Virus record (IMG/VR): IMGVR_UViG_3300031851_000147
Location: 1 to 26,385 of that record
DNA from: a virus
DNA length: 26,385 bases
Reading direction: 5' to 3' (one strand)
Both the position numbers and the translations under genes were made by a program. The notes beneath the pieces were generated by a model. The model saw only the letters and a program-made list of their open reading frames with translations. It searched no databases and was not told the origin of the DNA. Shown in pieces: positions 17,612 to 24,223 of the stretch. Every line of letters starts with the position of its first letter. Position 1 is the stretch's first letter.

Positions 17612-20155
17612 TTAGTCGCTTGATTTACAGAAAGATACAGCATGTCGAACAGCTACATCTAAAGTTTGTAAAGCTACGATTCTTACTCCGCCTGAAGTTG
17701 ATAACGCATAAGGATCAACAGTTATATCGAGTCCTCCATACATACCAATCAATAGGTCAGCAAAATTACCAAAGTAGTAATCGCCTGCAGTAACCTGATT
17801 AGACCTAACAACATCATAGCCATTAATGTTTCCATCTGGGCCTACAATCATTTGTCCAAATCCACTTGCCTTATCTACAGTTTTTAGGTTACCCCAGTCT
17901 GAAGGTCTAGCAATATATCTTAATGAACCAGTTAATGCATTGTCATTAGATACAGCAGATTCCATAGCTACAAGCTCTCCAAATGTTGGAACAGCAGCAG
18001 CAAATGTTGTTGTGTTAATACCTGAAGTATTAGCAATACCTGTAGGTTGACCACTTGAACCAGAACCAGCTAAAGCACCTAAATCAATTGCAGTAGCAAT
18101 AGAAGCGCTTAAGTCATTTCTAATTAAGCTCTCAATATCTAAAGATGATTGTTGAAGCATAAGTCTAGAAGCATCTGTAAACGCTCCAATTACCTTAGGA
18201 GACATAGTAATGCTTCCTGTAGTAAATTCACTTTCAGCAGCAGCAGCACCTTCAGTTGCAATCCAACCAGCAGATGAAGCACCTGTTTTCTTTGGAATTA
18301 CAACATTTCCTTGTAAGCCTCTTAGCATAGTTGCACCAGCTTGCATAACACTTGATGAGTTACGTAAGACATCTATAAAATCACCAGCTCTGTAATCTTC
18401 AGATATAAGAGTTGAATCATCAGATGTATTTAAGTCCCTTTTGCTCCAGTTACCTAGAACTTCAGCAGGAAGCATAATACCTTGTGCTGTTTTACCATAC
18501 TGTCTAGCAGCTTCATCTGAACATTCAAATTCAAATTTAGCAGCTTCTTGAGCTTTTCTGTCTGAAGGATTAGCTAATGCATTAATTGCTCTAACTAATG
18601 AGAATTCTCTCACTTCTTGTTTGCTCATGCCAATTTCAGCAGTATCTAGTGGCTTGTCATTACATATTTCATTAAGTAACTCGCCTCTAAATTCTTCTAC
18701 TGACATTCCGTTTCTAATAGCGTCGTCAGCTAAATCTCTTTTGTTATGCTTAACAGCTAAATCAATGATTTCTTTTGAATTTCTTTTAAATTCAGCTTTA
18801 GCTTCTTCAAGAGTTTGGCTTCTGACTTCATCAAGATTAATATCTTGTTTTTTTTCTTCTGTCATAATAATACCTTTATTTAAGTTAGCAGAACGTCCAA
18901 CTCCGACAAGTCGTGATTGATCTGCAGGAACTGAAACACTGGAAACCTCCATTGGAGTCCAAGCAGCCCTGTAGTAATCTTCTTCGCCATCGTTATCTCG
19001 TTCTAATTTATTTACTCTATACCCAACACTAATATTCATGCGAATACCGTCTTGAATATCCTGAAAAACTTCTTGAGCTAGTGCTGATCTACCAAATCGA
19101 ACAACAGCAATAGTCCTTTTTGCTGTCTCATCAAGTTTAAATTCTTCGATAACCCCTATTTGTTTAGACATGTCATGGTCTAATAAAAATGGAGCTCTAC
19201 CTGAAGATATAAATTCCATATCTATATCTTTTTGTTCATGACTTAGTACTTCTAAGCCAAATGAACGTTCAACCGGTTCTTCTGAGCTTACGCCAATACG
19301 AACCAATCTTTTTTCTTCGTCAAGATAAGAATGCTTTGATAAATCAATAGTTCTATAATTTATAGCAATATCAATATCAAGTTCTTCATTATTTTGACGT
19401 GAAGATTCTTCTGAATCAACAAATTCATCTTCATGTTCAACATCCTCATGCTTCTGAAATTCAACAACTACAGTGTTGTCAGTCTCAGTAACATTAAGGA
19501 TATGTCTATCTTCTTTATTCATAGATTTCTCCTCTTTATTTTTTGTTGATAAAGGATGCCCACTAGGTAATAAGTCCGTATCATGCTTACCTCCTTTAAA
19601 TTTGCCATTTCTTAAGACAAATAAATAAGAGTTAACCCGAGCCGCTGCCCATTGTTCAGGACTACTCACCGATGGTCTTACTGAAGCTGGATTGCTTTTA
19701 TATGCACCAATCCCTCTTTCATAAACTTTTGATAACGTTGCTACACTTGTTCTTTTTGATTTAGTGTCTCCAACTTCATCGTTGTGTTCTTTAACTTTAT
19801 TTTTAATCATTGTAAGAGCCTTACCTGTTAAAGCTCTTTCTTCTTCGTTTTTCATTTGATTAACTAATTTTTTTGACCAGCTAAAACCTGCATCTCCGCC
19901 CCAAAGACCCCATGCAATACGGCCATTACTTGGAAATCCTTTTTCACCTGGTCGAAAACCTTGTGCTTTTTTATCTACTTCATGCCTGCTAAAAAAGCTA
20001 TACATTCTTTTGATTGTACTATCTGATAAGTTATCACCATTAACAATTTGGTTTGCTCTGGCAAGTCCAACCCTGGTTCCGCCTCTACCGAATTCTTTAC
20101 GCCAATCTAATGCTCTTTGAGCATCTTCTTTCATTCCTTTAGTCGGTATCGCCAT
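17612..20155 (-). CDS. fusion of N-terminal domain, HK97-type prohead protease and major capsid protein
   Basis: The start at 20155 (MAIPTKG) is chosen for its AAGGAGG at 8-nt spacing and small overlap with portal; the product is 847 residues. Residues ~1-100 carry RGGTRVGLARA and PSNGRIAWGLWGGDAG, and ~135-205 carry VYERGIGAYKSNPASVRP and KGGKHDTDLLPSGHPL; both are small conserved phage domains of unknown role. Residues ~265-425 are an HK97-family prohead protease (FLLDHD with H327, NISVGYRV with S376, PMEVSSVSVPAD with E403). From ~431 a delta-domain-like helix region leads into an HK97-fold capsid (AGWIATEGAAAAESEFTT, IRNDLSASIATAIDLGALAG). The chain must be cut or also be started internally for normal heads. 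Confidence 0.9.
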   Translation of the reverse strand: MAIPTKGMKEDAQRALDWRKEFGRGGTRVGLARANQIVNGDNLSDSTIKRMYSFFSRHEVDKKAQGFRPGEKGFPSNGRIAWGLWGGDAGFSWSKKLVNQMKNEEERALTGKALTMIKNKVKEHNDEVGDTKSKRTSVATLSKVYERGIGAYKSNPASVRPSVSSPEQWAAARVNSYLFVLRNGKFKGGKHDTDLLPSGHPLSTKNKEEKSMNKEDRHILNVTETDNTVVVEFQKHEDVEHEDEFVDSEESSRQNNEELDIDIAINYRTIDLSKHSYLDEEKRLVRIGVSSEEPVERSFGLEVLSHEQKDIDMEFISSGRAPFLLDHDMSKQIGVIEEFKLDETAKRTIAVVRFGRSALAQEVFQDIQDGIRMNISVGYRVNKLERDNDGEEDYYRAAWTPMEVSSVSVPADQSRLVGVGRSANLNKGIIMTEEKKQDINLDEVRSQTLEEAKAEFKRNSKEIIDLAVKHNKRDLADDAIRNGMSVEEFRGELLNEICNDKPLDTAEIGMSKQEVREFSLVRAINALANPSDRKAQEAAKFEFECSDEAARQYGKTAQGIMLPAEVLGNWSKRDLNTSDDSTLISEDYRAGDFIDVLRNSSSVMQAGATMLRGLQGNVVIPKKTGASSAGWIATEGAAAAESEFTTGSITMSPKVIGAFTDASRLMLQQSSLDIESLIRNDLSASIATAIDLGALAGSGSSGQPTGIANTSGINTTTFAAAVPTFGELVAMESAVSNDNALTGSLRYIARPSDWGNLKTVDKASGFGQMIVGPDGNINGYDVVRSNQVTAGDYYFGNFADLLIGMYGGLDITVDPYALSTSGGVRIVALQTLDVAVRHAVSFCKSSD
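18863..18877 (-). promoter_or_regulatory. internal ribosome-binding site at the capsid part
   Basis: In frame within the fusion gene, AAAGG is followed by 7 nt and an ATG (18865-18863) that encodes M431, MTEEKKQDINLDEV. That sequence looks like the natural N-terminus of an HK97-type capsid precursor with its delta domain. Starting here would give a 417-residue capsid precursor, a usual size for the family. Internal initiation is inferred from the site and length. Confidence 0.45.
19520..19534 (-). promoter_or_regulatory. internal ribosome-binding site at the protease part
   Basis: GAGGAG at 19534-19529 lies 6 nt before an in-frame ATG (19522-19520) encoding M212 (MNKEDRHILN), between the N-terminal domains and the protease. 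A good Shine-Dalgarno at a domain border suggests a second product of 636 residues (protease plus capsid). The E-E-K-S coding sequence itself gives GAGGAG only by codon choice. Confidence 0.5.
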
Positions 20156-21656
20156 TGTCTTCGCCTCCTTTAACATCAGGTTCAATTGGTAGCTTAATTC
20201 CAAATGGCTGGAATGCTGTTTTAATTCCATATTGTTCTGCTAATTTTTGTTCTCTTTCATGTTGTTCATATAGCTCTTCAACATCTCTTCCGTAATTTGA
20301 TTGAACATCTTGATATGTAACAAGACCAGCTTGCATACCGTTAATTGAAGCATTCATTTCTTTTTGAGGGTCTACCCATTGGAATGATCTTCCTATAAAG
20401 ATTGCATTATTAGAAAACTTATCATATTTTCCCATTGGTAAGGGGGCATTAGCTTCGCTACCCATTACAATAGCTCCGCTTGATATTGCCATTTCTAACC
20501 ATTTTTCAAATACTGGTCTCATGAAATGATCAACTACAAAACGTTGATATAACTTATACATTTCTCTATCTTCAAGAGCTCCTGCTCTTAATGAACTATA
20601 ATTAACAGAGCTTAAATCATTTGTTAAAGCATGATAAGAAATATTTAAACCTGAAGCTATTCCTCGTAAAACCTGTGTTGTAAATGGTCCAAATGCTGTT
20701 GATGGGTGATCTGGGTCAAATGATTTAAAATCCATTCCGGCTGGTAGCTGCTCAAAACTTCCTGCTGATGCTTCCATAATTGGGGTAAAGCTTTCTTCAT
20801 AATCTTCGCCTACATAACCGTCTCCATCAGGACTTGTAAAGAATCCCATCTTGGCTGCTGATACACGAGCTGCTGTAATTTCAGCCTCCATATAGCCATT
20901 AAGCATTTTTATTTGAGGCATAGCAGAAGCAGTCATAGGAACTCCTCTGGTCTGCTCTGCTCGCGTCGGCATGTAAGCATGTATGATTTCCTCGGCCGGA
21001 ACTCTTATGTGTTCTTTGGGTGACTGGTACGTATTATCATATGGATGATTTTTAAATAAATAATAAGCAACTGGTTTATCAAAGCGATCTACTTCAACGC
21101 CCATTTTAATTCTATTTTTTGTTTTTGAATTAATACCGTTTTTTTGTTCGTCTAAATGATCTGCCTCAAGGAATTGGATTTTATATTTATACTTTGAGTC
21201 TGTCGGGGTGGCATGCCTAACTAAAACTTCGCCATCTCTCATTAATGCTTCAACAAATAATTTTTGACAATCTAAAAATGATTGGCGGCCGTTTAATGTA
21301 CAGTTACCCATTTTTGACCATCTTTTAAATTCTTGTTCAATTGTTTGATTGCCTAAAATATCTAAATCGCCTTTTGGATTTCTTGCTTTAACACTTAATC
21401 GAATACCATTAGCTCCAATAATATTGCTTATCATTAGATTTAAGTAACGAGCAACATATGAATCATTACGAGCTAAGTCTCTGCTTCGATCTCTTAATAT
21501 TCTTAATTGGTCTTTAATTTCAGCATCTGCTGATGTATTAGATGCTTGAAAGTCTGCAAATAATCTACCTGTATTAGCACCAGCATATCTACGAACTGAT
21601 GATATTTTTTTTACTTTTGTTTTATTAGTATTTGTAAACCTGTCATACCAAGCCAT
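20139..21656 (-). CDS. B: portal protein, lambda gpB family
   Basis: This 505-residue protein begins MAWYDRFTNTNKTKVKKISS, then SVRRYAGANTGRLFADF and ARYLNLMISNIIGANGIRLS. It contains FVEALMRDGEVLVRH, YKIQFLEADHLDEQKNG and GIASGLNISYHALTNDLSSVNYSS, all typical of lambda-family (PF05136-type) portals. The dodecameric portal forms the DNA entry vertex, docks terminase and later the tail connector. The last residues after ~480 are acidic and variable. It has GAGG at 8-nt spacing. The protease-capsid fusion gene starts inside its end, so portal and capsid are translationally linked. Confidence 0.93.
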   Translation of the reverse strand: MAWYDRFTNTNKTKVKKISSVRRYAGANTGRLFADFQASNTSADAEIKDQLRILRDRSRDLARNDSYVARYLNLMISNIIGANGIRLSVKARNPKGDLDILGNQTIEQEFKRWSKMGNCTLNGRQSFLDCQKLFVEALMRDGEVLVRHATPTDSKYKYKIQFLEADHLDEQKNGINSKTKNRIKMGVEVDRFDKPVAYYLFKNHPYDNTYQSPKEHIRVPAEEIIHAYMPTRAEQTRGVPMTASAMPQIKMLNGYMEAEITAARVSAAKMGFFTSPDGDGYVGEDYEESFTPIMEASAGSFEQLPAGMDFKSFDPDHPSTAFGPFTTQVLRGIASGLNISYHALTNDLSSVNYSSLRAGALEDREMYKLYQRFVVDHFMRPVFEKWLEMAISSGAIVMGSEANAPLPMGKYDKFSNNAIFIGRSFQWVDPQKEMNASINGMQAGLVTYQDVQSNYGRDVEELYEQHEREQKLAEQYGIKTAFQPFGIKLPIEPDVKGGEDNGDTD

Positions 21657-22323: not shown

Positions 22324-22776
22324 TTAGCCTATTTTAATATAATTTATGTTGCTTTTTTCAAATAATTCTTGTGATGCTTTAAAACTTTCAGTCCATTTGT
22401 CTTTTGGCTTATTTGAAGAATAAGTAACAACTTCTTTTATACCTACTTGTATAATACCTTTAGCACATTCATGACATACGTCTAAGCCATATACAAATAA
22501 AGTTGATCCTTCTAAAGATATGCCATTTAAAGTAGCATGATATATACAATTCATTTCTGCATGAATAATATAATTCTTTTTTAATTTTGAGTTTTTATAT
22601 ATTATTTCAGAATCATCAAAACCTTTAGGAAAACCATTATACCCCTGGGATAATACCTGCCCACGATTTCCAATAGCTACGGCTCCAACCTGAACAGATG
22701 GGTCTTTAGACCAGCTAGCAAACTTTTTAGCTAGCGTTAAATATTTTAAATTCCAGGAGTCTGAATAACTAGACAT
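22324..22776 (-). CDS. dCMP deaminase family protein
   Basis: This 150-residue protein shows the zinc-dependent cytidine/deoxycytidylate deaminase fold: VQVGAVAIGNRGQVLSQGYN, then IHAEMNCIYHA with H72 and catalytic E74, and VCHECAKGIIQVGIKEVV with C101 and C104. The usual PCxxC has Val in place of Pro here. The enzyme converts dCMP to dUMP, normally to feed thymidylate synthesis. Its start overlaps the end of the ThyA-family gene by 8 nt, so both are made together. Beside a ThyA-family enzyme that may prefer dCMP, it could instead act on the modified nucleotide or balance dCMP. Activity is not proven by sequence. Confidence 0.88.
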   Translation of the reverse strand: MSSYSDSWNLKYLTLAKKFASWSKDPSVQVGAVAIGNRGQVLSQGYNGFPKGFDDSEIIYKNSKLKKNYIIHAEMNCIYHATLNGISLEGSTLFVYGLDVCHECAKGIIQVGIKEVVTYSSNKPKDKWTESFKASQELFEKSNINYIKIG

Positions 22777-23563
22777 TTACTTCAAGCTTTTTAGCAGCAT
22801 TATGTTTATAACTTGCAATAATAAAATCAGCCGGGTATAAATTGTCAATACCTGCTTCATAATGTAATTTTACGGTAGGTGGATTAAATATTTCTAATTC
22901 ATGAGCTGTTTTTGCAAATTGTATATGATTATTATAAATATGCGCATCGCCTAAATTAAATATTAGTTTGTGAGGAGTTGTATCTAATTCATTAGACAAA
23001 ACTAACATTAATAATGAGTGGAACAATATATCCGAAGGAAGTCCCACCATTACATCAGACGAGCGCATGTTAACCAATAAACTTAAATGATTATTGTGAA
23101 TAAATAATTGAAAACCGTGAAAGCAGGGCAATAAAGCCATTTTATCTGCATCAACTGGATTCCAAGCTGAAACATACAATCTCCTTGACTCTGGATTAAC
23201 CTTAGCTTCTTGAATAACGTTTTTTAATTGGTCAATCTGTAAGCCAGAATAATTACGCCATTGAGACCCGTATATAGGACCTAAATTGCCATCTTCTTCA
23301 GCCCAAGCATCCCAGTAATTACAGCCCAGTGTTTTAAAGTCATTTACATTTGTATGACCACGTAAAAAAGCAATAAGCTCACCAATTACACCTTTATAAA
23401 ATATTCTACGATGTGTTAATAATGGAAACCCAGCTTTTAAATTTAATTCAAGATTTGCGCCAAATATACCTAAAGTGCCTACACCTGTTCTTTCTTGATT
23501 TCTTTTAACACCTTCGGTTAATACTTTATTAACTAAAGCAAAATATTTTTTTTCATTTTCCAT
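22769..23563 (-). CDS. ThyA-family nucleotide methylase, dCMP-type candidate
   Basis: At 264 residues it aligns end to end with E. coli ThyA. Conserved features are R25 (ERTGVG), E62 (GELIAFL), W84 and W87 (YWDAWA), GPIYGSQWR, SRR (R127, R128), the nucleophile C147 in LLPC, RSSD (R167, D170) and GDAHIYNNH (H208, Y210). The position of E. coli Asn177, which selects dUMP over dCMP, is D178 (GLPSDIL) here. An Asp there occurs in T4 dCMP hydroxymethylase and turns thymidylate synthase into a dCMP methylase in published mutants. PCH is also changed to PCF, and Q of QRS to Met. Likely a dCMP methylase or hydroxymethylase using methylene-tetrahydrofolate. Plain thymidylate synthase remains the alternative. 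Confidence 0.87.
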   Translation of the reverse strand: MENEKKYFALVNKVLTEGVKRNQERTGVGTLGIFGANLELNLKAGFPLLTHRRIFYKGVIGELIAFLRGHTNVNDFKTLGCNYWDAWAEEDGNLGPIYGSQWRNYSGLQIDQLKNVIQEAKVNPESRRLYVSAWNPVDADKMALLPCFHGFQLFIHNNHLSLLVNMRSSDVMVGLPSDILFHSLLMLVLSNELDTTPHKLIFNLGDAHIYNNHIQFAKTAHELEIFNPPTVKLHYEAGIDNLYPADFIIASYKHNAAKKLEVNV

Positions 23564-23819
23564 TTTGTTTTTTTAAATAAGCGCCGTAAAAACTTGCATA
23601 GTTAATTAAATCTAAAACTGAATCATAACTAGATTCAAAATTAGGTTTTTTGTCATCAAAAGCTACTGACTCTAAACGTTTTACTTTTGTTTGAATCATT
23701 TGCAAATATGAATAATGACCATAAGGAAAGTATTCTTGTTTAGCTTCTGAGTCAACAGAGTTATAGTCTTCTTCTTTTTGTTTTTGTAAAGCTGCGGCTT
23801 CGCTTAATACTGAATGCAT
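23553..23819 (-). CDS. Nmad1/DUF1599-like small protein
   Basis: This 88-residue protein is mostly helical: ALQKQKEEDYN, EYFPYGHYSYLQMIQTKVKR, then SSYDSVLDLINYASFYGAYL. The arrangement 'K..DY ... yG..SY..mI..K..Rl ... DS..DLinYa' resembles the nucleotide-modification-associated domain 1 family (Nmad1, DUF1599). That family was linked to modified-base genes by gene context, with biochemistry unknown. I recall the family from its motif and cannot verify it here. It has AAGGAG at 5-nt spacing, and its stop overlaps the ThyA-family start by 11 nt. It is probably a partner in the same nucleotide cassette. Confidence 0.66.
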   Translation of the reverse strand: MHSVLSEAAALQKQKEEDYNSVDSEAKQEYFPYGHYSYLQMIQTKVKRLESVAFDDKKPNFESSYDSVLDLINYASFYGAYLKKQNGK

Positions 23820-23821
23820 AG

Positions 23822-24223
23822 TTACTCCTTATTTAAAAAATCTAATTTACCAACATTATCAAAATGTTGTGGGGCTTGCCAGCCTTTAGGTTTTACAAGA
23901 TCAGGTAATCCTAATGGATTAGGCCTGGTATCTTTAACCCCTATTTTTTTCTGCATATTTGCATGATGTACTCGCTTCCACGCTTTTTTAATATTTACAT
24001 CAAATGCATCTAGTGTTCCTAATGCAATAACAATAATATCTATAAAAGCATCTACTACTTCATCAGCTTCATCATTTTCAATTGCTGTAATTAATTCGTT
24101 TAATTCTTCTTGAATAAACTTAGCTCGAAATTCAAGATAATGTAATTTTTCATTATCTGAAGCATTAGCAATAAACCGGTATATTTTGTAATACCGGTTT
24201 AAGTTTTTTATGTCGCCGAGCAT
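23822..24223 (-). CDS. MazG-like NTP pyrophosphohydrolase
   Basis: This 133-residue helical protein contains the EExxE motif (E39, E40, E43 in FIQEELNELITAI) followed by ExxD (E55, D58 in DEVVDAFIDIIVIALGTL). These are the metal-binding motifs of all-alpha NTP pyrophosphohydrolases (MazG, dUTPase, dCTPase groups). These enzymes cut NTPs or dNTPs to the monophosphate. In this operon a dCTPase activity would supply dCMP for the ThyA-family enzyme and lower unmodified dCTP, as T4 gp56 does, but substrate cannot be read from sequence. The C-terminal ~50 residues (NPLGLPDLVKPKGW) are an added tail. The start lacks a Shine-Dalgarno. Confidence 0.75.
   Translation of the reverse strand: MLGDIKNLNRYYKIYRFIANASDNEKLHYLEFRAKFIQEELNELITAIENDEADEVVDAFIDIIVIALGTLDAFDVNIKKAWKRVHHANMQKKIGVKDTRPNPLGLPDLVKPKGWQAPQHFDNVGKLDFLNKE
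24173..24200 (-). repeat. perfect 10-bp hairpin in the start of the MazG-like gene
   Basis: AAACCGGTAT (24173-24182) and ATACCGGTTT (24191-24200) are perfect inverted repeats with an 8-nt loop. The stem starts about 20 nt inside the coding sequence and spans codons ~9-17 of the MazG-like gene, whose start has no Shine-Dalgarno. It could slow initiation or ribosome entry, protect processed mRNA, or bind a protein. The two CCGG cores stand out in this A/T-rich DNA. Confidence 0.7.

Follow-up and report, generated by a model that had tools for sequence, protein, structure and literature searches.

Candidate nested in-frame start sites in a fused prohead protease-capsid gene of a marine tailed phage

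Results

Organisation of the fused head gene

The window, by which the whole 26385-base IMG/VR virus record is meant, carries on its minus strand a single frame of 847 residues with an ATG at 20155 and a stop at 17612. The plus strand is closed at 17612-20155 by stops throughout. According to translation, Pfam, PHROGs and structural models, the frame (17612-20155, minus strand) begins with a helical N-terminal module (N-module) and a DUF5824-like piece. An S78-type prohead protease comes next, and a delta domain leads over to the HK97-fold capsid protein at the C-terminal end. This bears out the original prediction of one ORF joining N-terminal domains, prohead protease and capsid, which had left the strand unstated. 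The portal gene (20139-21656) precedes and overlaps the fused ORF.

With an E value of 2.9e-143, phrog_617 ('major head protein') covers residues 266-845, which makes the product a member of the fused protease-MCP group. The NCBIfam model for prohead protease/MCP fusions (NF045541) scored 138.9 bits, below its curated cut-off of 525. The core of the prohead serine protease comprises residues 319-413 (18917-19201, minus strand). Peptidase_S78 (PF04586) reached 25.9 bits against a cut-off of 21 when a 219-aa piece was searched and was not listed for the whole ORF, and TIGR01543 scored 28.2 bits on the protease, under its curated cut-off of 59. The protease core is intact; H327 and S376, which we take to be the catalytic His and Ser of the S78 protease, are invariant across the aligned relatives.

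The mature HK97-fold capsid protein occupies residues ∼580-847 (17615-18418, minus strand) and was matched by Phage_capsid (PF05065, residues 590-844) with 134.9 bits (cut-off 24.2) and by TIGR01554 with 101.9 bits (cut-off 27.5). It is preceded by a predicted delta (scaffold) domain at residues ∼431-579 (18419-18865, minus strand). The 417 residues from M431 to the stop were modelled with AlphaFold using 52 sequences (mean pLDDT 82). The model starts with a short disordered tail. Helices, with breaks, span 11-39, 43-52, 56-70 and 82-123; confidence is low in the linker that follows at about 144-160 (pLDDT <50 at 144-152 and 157-160), and the HK97 fold completes the model. Judged by this model, delta would be expected to be cleaved off within the linker before the capsid. 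A Foldseek search of the PDB ranked 8gta, the capsid of R4C, first (E 1.3e-22), with the capsids of HK97 and of gene-transfer agents after it. The R4C gene encodes a 629-aa fusion, of which only residues 362-629 form the chain deposited as 8gta, and the first residue of this chain maps to D580 of the window. The R4C paper gives 415 capsid subunits, and its text contains neither 'protease' nor 'cleav'.

The fusion was followed through related phages. A tblastn search against 50,697 phage records returned 288 records with a match, nine of them with a query coverage of at least 80%. The three-part relatives include the Roseobacter phages CRP-811, CRP-821 and CRP-406 and the Synechococcus phage S-CBS3. 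Among 549 confirmed IMG/VR loci, the best 80 all had a single open frame where they were covered. The protease piece as sole query led to 49 loci, of which 44 were fused and five were cut by the contig end; split protease and capsid copies were absent from these 49. Since the frames of the relatives are intact and no split was seen among the protease loci, an artefact of sequencing or assembly, which the original prediction had considered, is ruled out. The fusion is real and conserved. It had also been stated that the parts are separate genes in most phages. This holds for phages of the HK97 type but not for the fused protease-capsid family, where fusion is the rule. Phages of Rhodobacter and Paracoccus with such fusions have been described before.

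N-terminal module and junction inserts

Upstream of the protease, the original prediction had placed two unknown domains. Both can now be matched to uncharacterised families. The N-module comprises residues 1-105 (19841-20155, minus strand), with a match to phrog_2859 at about residues 4-109. Its AlphaFold model is helical (mean pLDDT 84.2); the PDB gave no match by sequence and a best E value of 2.7 by fold, while the BFVD matches were prohead proteases and portal, XkdF- and ChaB-named proteins. Among the loci collected by profile, the N-module frequently forms the C-terminus of a different ORF. Three such ORFs from marine phages were checked and are portal fusions (L213:2597-4657, L231:2582-4660 and L233:2471-4645). 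The N-module is a travelling module of head genes. A role in seating the protein at the portal is a guess by analogy with the portal proteins that carry the same module at their C-termini.

The DUF5824-like domain follows at residues 126-192 (19580-19780, minus strand) and was found with PF19141 at 33.3 bits (cut-off 25) in a 211-aa piece. Three loci (L043, L044 and L051) share >90% identity with the window across residues 200-847 but do not have the DUF5824-like stretch, pointing to a recent loss or gain of a module at the junction of N-module and protease. A 'YPNEHAARL...' domain lies between N-module and protease in both CRP-821 and S-CBS3 (linkers of L002 and L003, columns 240-310 of alignment A1). 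The window does not have this domain, which is another mobile insert at this junction. A single T, in a run of T, separates CRP-823 from CRP-821 and splits N-module from protease (L099:2195-2210); this may be a slip in sequencing, or else a frameshift that is tolerated ahead of an M212-type start. Since a slip is possible, CRP-823 was not counted as a natural split of N-module and protease.

The start site of the full frame

Shine-Dalgarno (SD) sequences were scored by their pairing with the 16S tail in kcal/mol, with a threshold of ≤-5. The first methionine, M1 (ATG 20155-20153), has the site TTAAAGGAGGCGAAGACA-ATG, which has the best SD among the ATGs of the ORF at -12.1 kcal/mol; the SD itself, AAAGGAGG, lies at 20164-20171 on the minus strand and overlaps the end of the portal gene. 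An alternative start at ATG 20230, giving 872 aa, is less likely because the SD of M1 is stronger and the frames of most relatives begin closer to M1.

For comparison, 70 distinct proteins from near relatives were used (66 from IMG/VR or the window and four from named phages). Methionine is found at the M212 column in 66 of the 70 and at the M431 column in 69. The M212 column had the best SD of all Met columns (mean -8.6, 66/66 at ≤-5), followed by the M1 column (mean -7.6). The M431 column came fourth, after one with only 17 methionines, with a mean of -6.5 and 74% of 69 at ≤-5. The conserved M610 within the capsid core also looks SD-like (mean -5.7), though nothing suggests a start there, and an SD score alone thus proves nothing.

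The start site at the protease border

M212 (ATG 19522-19520) opens a nested frame of 636 aa with protease, delta and capsid (17612-19522, minus strand). Its SD AAAGAGGAG (19529-19537, minus strand) is located 6 nt from the ATG and scores -9.0 kcal/mol. In the window alone, comparison with synonymous recoding gave p=0.05. The SD is conserved in relatives, where the variants AAAGAGGAG, AACAAGGAG, CTAAAGGAGG and GAAAGGGAG occur. The seven codons leading up to M212 favour GAG over GAA (109:29, compared to 1055:4245 overall). Of 135 three-part proteins, 109 have an M..RH[IVL] motif after the N-terminal part and 26 do not. Twenty representatives of these 109 (<80% identical) had a mean score of -6.48 with 17 at ≤-5, a mean that was reached by none of 2000 synonymous recodings (-4.35 ± 0.51).

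Two relatives without the N-module (L452 and L455) match the window with ∼63.5% identity across residues 207-847. Their protease-capsid gene begins right at the end of the portal gene, eight codons before the equivalent of M212. Because of this position, M212 looks like the ancestral gene start, and the sequences read best as an old start retained after in-frame insertion of the N-module upstream. The internal SD and ATG proposed at the protease border are thus supported both by the recodings and by the nearby starts of relatives without the N-module.

A 21-codon out-of-frame ORF (19584-19519, minus strand) with a perfect AAAGGAGG SD ends in a TGA that overlaps the ATG of M212. Translational coupling was considered and rejected. 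The SD of this ORF is present only in the nearest clade, where it falls on KFKGG codons, and absent in the other relatives shown, so the ORF was treated as a chance occurrence.

The start site between protease and delta

M431 (ATG 18865-18863) opens the shortest frame, 417 aa with delta and capsid (17612-18865, minus strand). The lengths of 636 and 417 residues originally given for the two internal-start products are correct. The SD of M431, AAAGG (18873-18877, minus strand), lies 7 nt from the ATG and scores -4.0 kcal/mol, near the median of -5.0 for the other starts of this phage. In the window alone it is no better than synonymous recoding (p=0.78), and the case for M431 therefore rests on comparison. 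The SD variants of relatives at this position are AAAGG, AAGGAG, GAGGT and AAGGTG, and GAG outnumbers GAA 35:3 in the five preceding codons, again compared to 1055:4245 overall.

A profile of 14 fused proteins was used to collect further loci from IMG/VR and bacterial genomes, and 287 frames were matched. The alignment held 285 proteins covering both halves (284 loci and the window); an incomplete L181 ORF was left out, as were two additional ORFs, in L285 and L323, that encode a capsid only. Thinning to one protein per 70% identity gave 113 representatives. The linker was taken from the invariant Arg after the protease to the conserved Ile of delta. It is hypervariable, with 26-96 residues among the 113 representatives. 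Still, it contains an in-frame ATG in 112 of these 113, which are <70% identical (284/285 before thinning). An SD of ≤-5 precedes a linker ATG in 88/113 (202/285 unthinned) and one of ≤-7 in 36/113. Synonymous recoding gave 49.8 ± 4.2 with a maximum of 59 in 300 trials, and codon shuffling gave 26.3 ± 4.0. Segments of equal length elsewhere had an SD in 22% of 1819 cases, and SD-ATG combinations in the other frames of the linker were found in 20/113 (+1) and 0/113 (+2). The remaining 25 representatives fall short of ≤-5, and the Synechococcus phages S-CBS3 and S-LBS1 are essentially without an SD. Two more distant Helicobacter prophage proteins have AAGGAG or AAAGGAGG before a linker ATG. The proposed start at the beginning of the delta domain is thus conserved across divergent relatives, although it is at chance level in the window itself. 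By this comparison, the capsid start site in the linker is common to most of the fused family and not peculiar to the phage of the window.

Accessibility of the RNA at the linker start was 0.87 against random windows and 0.83 against other linker windows. Against synonymous recoding the effect was weak (0.576 ± 0.035), and it is for this reason not taken as evidence for the start; the low RNA structure at the sites is mostly explained by amino-acid composition.

Two phages allow a direct comparison. In R4C, no other ATG of the gene has as good an SD as the one in the linker (M189). The phage phi39:1 is of the split type, with a protease gene and a capsid gene that overlap in TAATG; residue 95 of its capsid protein is aligned with position 86 of the 417-aa product. 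A homologue with split genes, a comparison proposed at the outset, thus begins its capsid gene ∼9 residues from the position of M431.

Discussion

Proposed mechanism

The most likely mechanism, to which we assign a probability of about three in four, is nested translation, in which the head gene of this marine tailed phage would be read from several in-frame starts. The conserved sites show selection at the nucleotide level. The use of the internal starts is inferred, and so are the ratio of the products, the cleavage site and the role of the N-module. Ribosomes would start at M1 (847 aa), M212 (636 aa) and M431 (417 aa). The 417-aa product would be an ordinary HK97-type prohead subunit. Its helical delta would serve as an integral scaffold until it is removed by a cut near residue 575-580. 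With the longer products, the S78-type protease would enter the prohead tethered covalently to a capsid subunit, and would then free itself and trim delta. M431 would supply delta-capsid, M212 the ancestral protease-capsid protein and M1 its module-extended version, with the capsid start being ancestral to the fused protease-capsid family.

The original prediction had further expected few protease copies and many capsid subunits. This does not follow from the sequence because the predicted SD strength in the window decreases from M1 (-12.1) over M212 (-9.0) to M431 (-4.0). The full and the 636-aa products could also yield capsid subunits after cleavage.

Alternative explanations

If only the full product were made, the protease could cut this single polyprotein into N-module, protease, delta and capsid, and the SD-like strings would be incidental. 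The invariant H327 and S376 in an intact protease core and the low-confidence linker before the capsid would suit such processing, and the comparable fusion of MD8 has been published as a single gene with a single propeptide. We nevertheless regard a pure polyprotein as unlikely. It leaves unexplained the linker ATG in 112/113 representatives, the excess of SDs over synonymous recoding and the GAG bias, and it needs one protease chain per capsid subunit in particles such as that of R4C with the 415 subunits mentioned above. Cutting of the longer products as polyproteins alongside nested starts is possible.

It is quite improbable that the sites are relics, i.e. the old starts of separate genes that were fused by loss of a stop and survive unused. 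Relatives that still begin where such starts would lie do exist, namely the split phi39:1 for the capsid and the phages without N-module for M212. M212 occurs in a younger clade and may yet be a relic in part. Unused sites should decay, however, whereas the capsid site persists at <70% identity despite the turnover of length and sequence in the linker, and none of the 49 loci reached through the protease was a split copy.

That a conserved charged 'KE..M' peptide, for example a protease cleavage site, merely mimics an SD is highly improbable: the GG of the linker SD does lie in one codon phase at 64 of 87 sites, KE and EE are the commonest dipeptides (37/87) and the residues at the start are also conserved in the MD8-type family, but synonymous recoding keeps the peptide and yet lets the sites fall from 88 to ∼50, GG occurs in all three phases (64/12/11) with 29 different dipeptides, and GAG is chosen over GAA.

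The nested-start reading can be extended to the fused protease-capsid phages as a class, which would use internal initiation and not polyprotein cleavage for their shell protein. In the marine clade, the portal-associated module of the longest tier could place the protease-capsid protein at the portal vertex, where it would act as nucleator. Taken as a whole this extension is rather doubtful. Its class-wide half, internal initiation, is supported by the linker sites of the family.

Comparison with known systems

The phrog_617 fusions (VP882, phiHAP-1, ep3, R4C, RcCronus and the FoX phages, by similarity) have protease, delta and capsid in one frame like the window, and most share the linker ATG with an SD. 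The window differs from them by the added N-module and DUF5824-like piece with a third start. These additions are so far shared with marine IMG/VR phages and with Roseobacter phages such as CRP-821 and CRP-406, of which CRP-406 does not have the DUF5824-like piece. S-CBS1 and S-CBS3 have an N-module like the window but no SD at the start of delta.

An internal in-frame start in a protease gene is known from C/Nu3 of lambda. Mu and PaMx73 likewise have such a start with its own SD, leading to the scaffold (PMC4378225). The frames of Mu and lambda C/Nu3 resemble the window in that an in-frame SD start lies inside the protease gene and the products share their C-terminus. Their nested product, however, is the scaffold alone with the capsid as a separate gene, whereas that of the window would be delta plus capsid. 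HK97 gp4/gp5 share with the window the S78 protease, the delta scaffold (predicted in the window) joined to the capsid and the HK97 fold; protease and delta-capsid are two genes in HK97, as described in section 9 of PMC8508860, and one frame in the window. In MD8, a lambda-type ClpP protease, a scaffold and a Mu-type capsid form one gene with a single propeptide (same source). The protease family of this fusion is unrelated to that of the window. All 14 representatives of the MD8 type (L341:4371-6452, L342-L421) carry an ATG with an SD at 26 residues past the end of the protease (-5.6 to -8.7), which is suggestive only because the residues at the start are conserved and this weakens the evidence at the nucleotide level. 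Among the listings and passages of open-licence PMC papers covered by the analysis, no published internal capsid start in a protease-capsid fusion was found.

Implications and further observations

The fused genes are annotated as a single 'major capsid protein' of 600-970 aa. Use of the linker start would mean that the real precursor of the capsid is a separate and much shorter product, and that translation of a single frame could set the ratio of protease to capsid. Capsid gene predictions, virion proteomics and structural work on many phages (R4C, VP882, ep3, RcCronus) would then need to be read again. The fused gene offers a simple test case for how a protease is kept scarce when it is joined to the most abundant protein of the particle.

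Two minor observations concern gene content. In a Haematospirillum prophage, a second, capsid-only ORF directly follows the fused gene (L285:2895-5851). In the window, the region between terminase and head genes (22324-24223, minus strand) appears by eye to encode a dCMP deaminase, a thymidylate synthase and a MazG-like protein.
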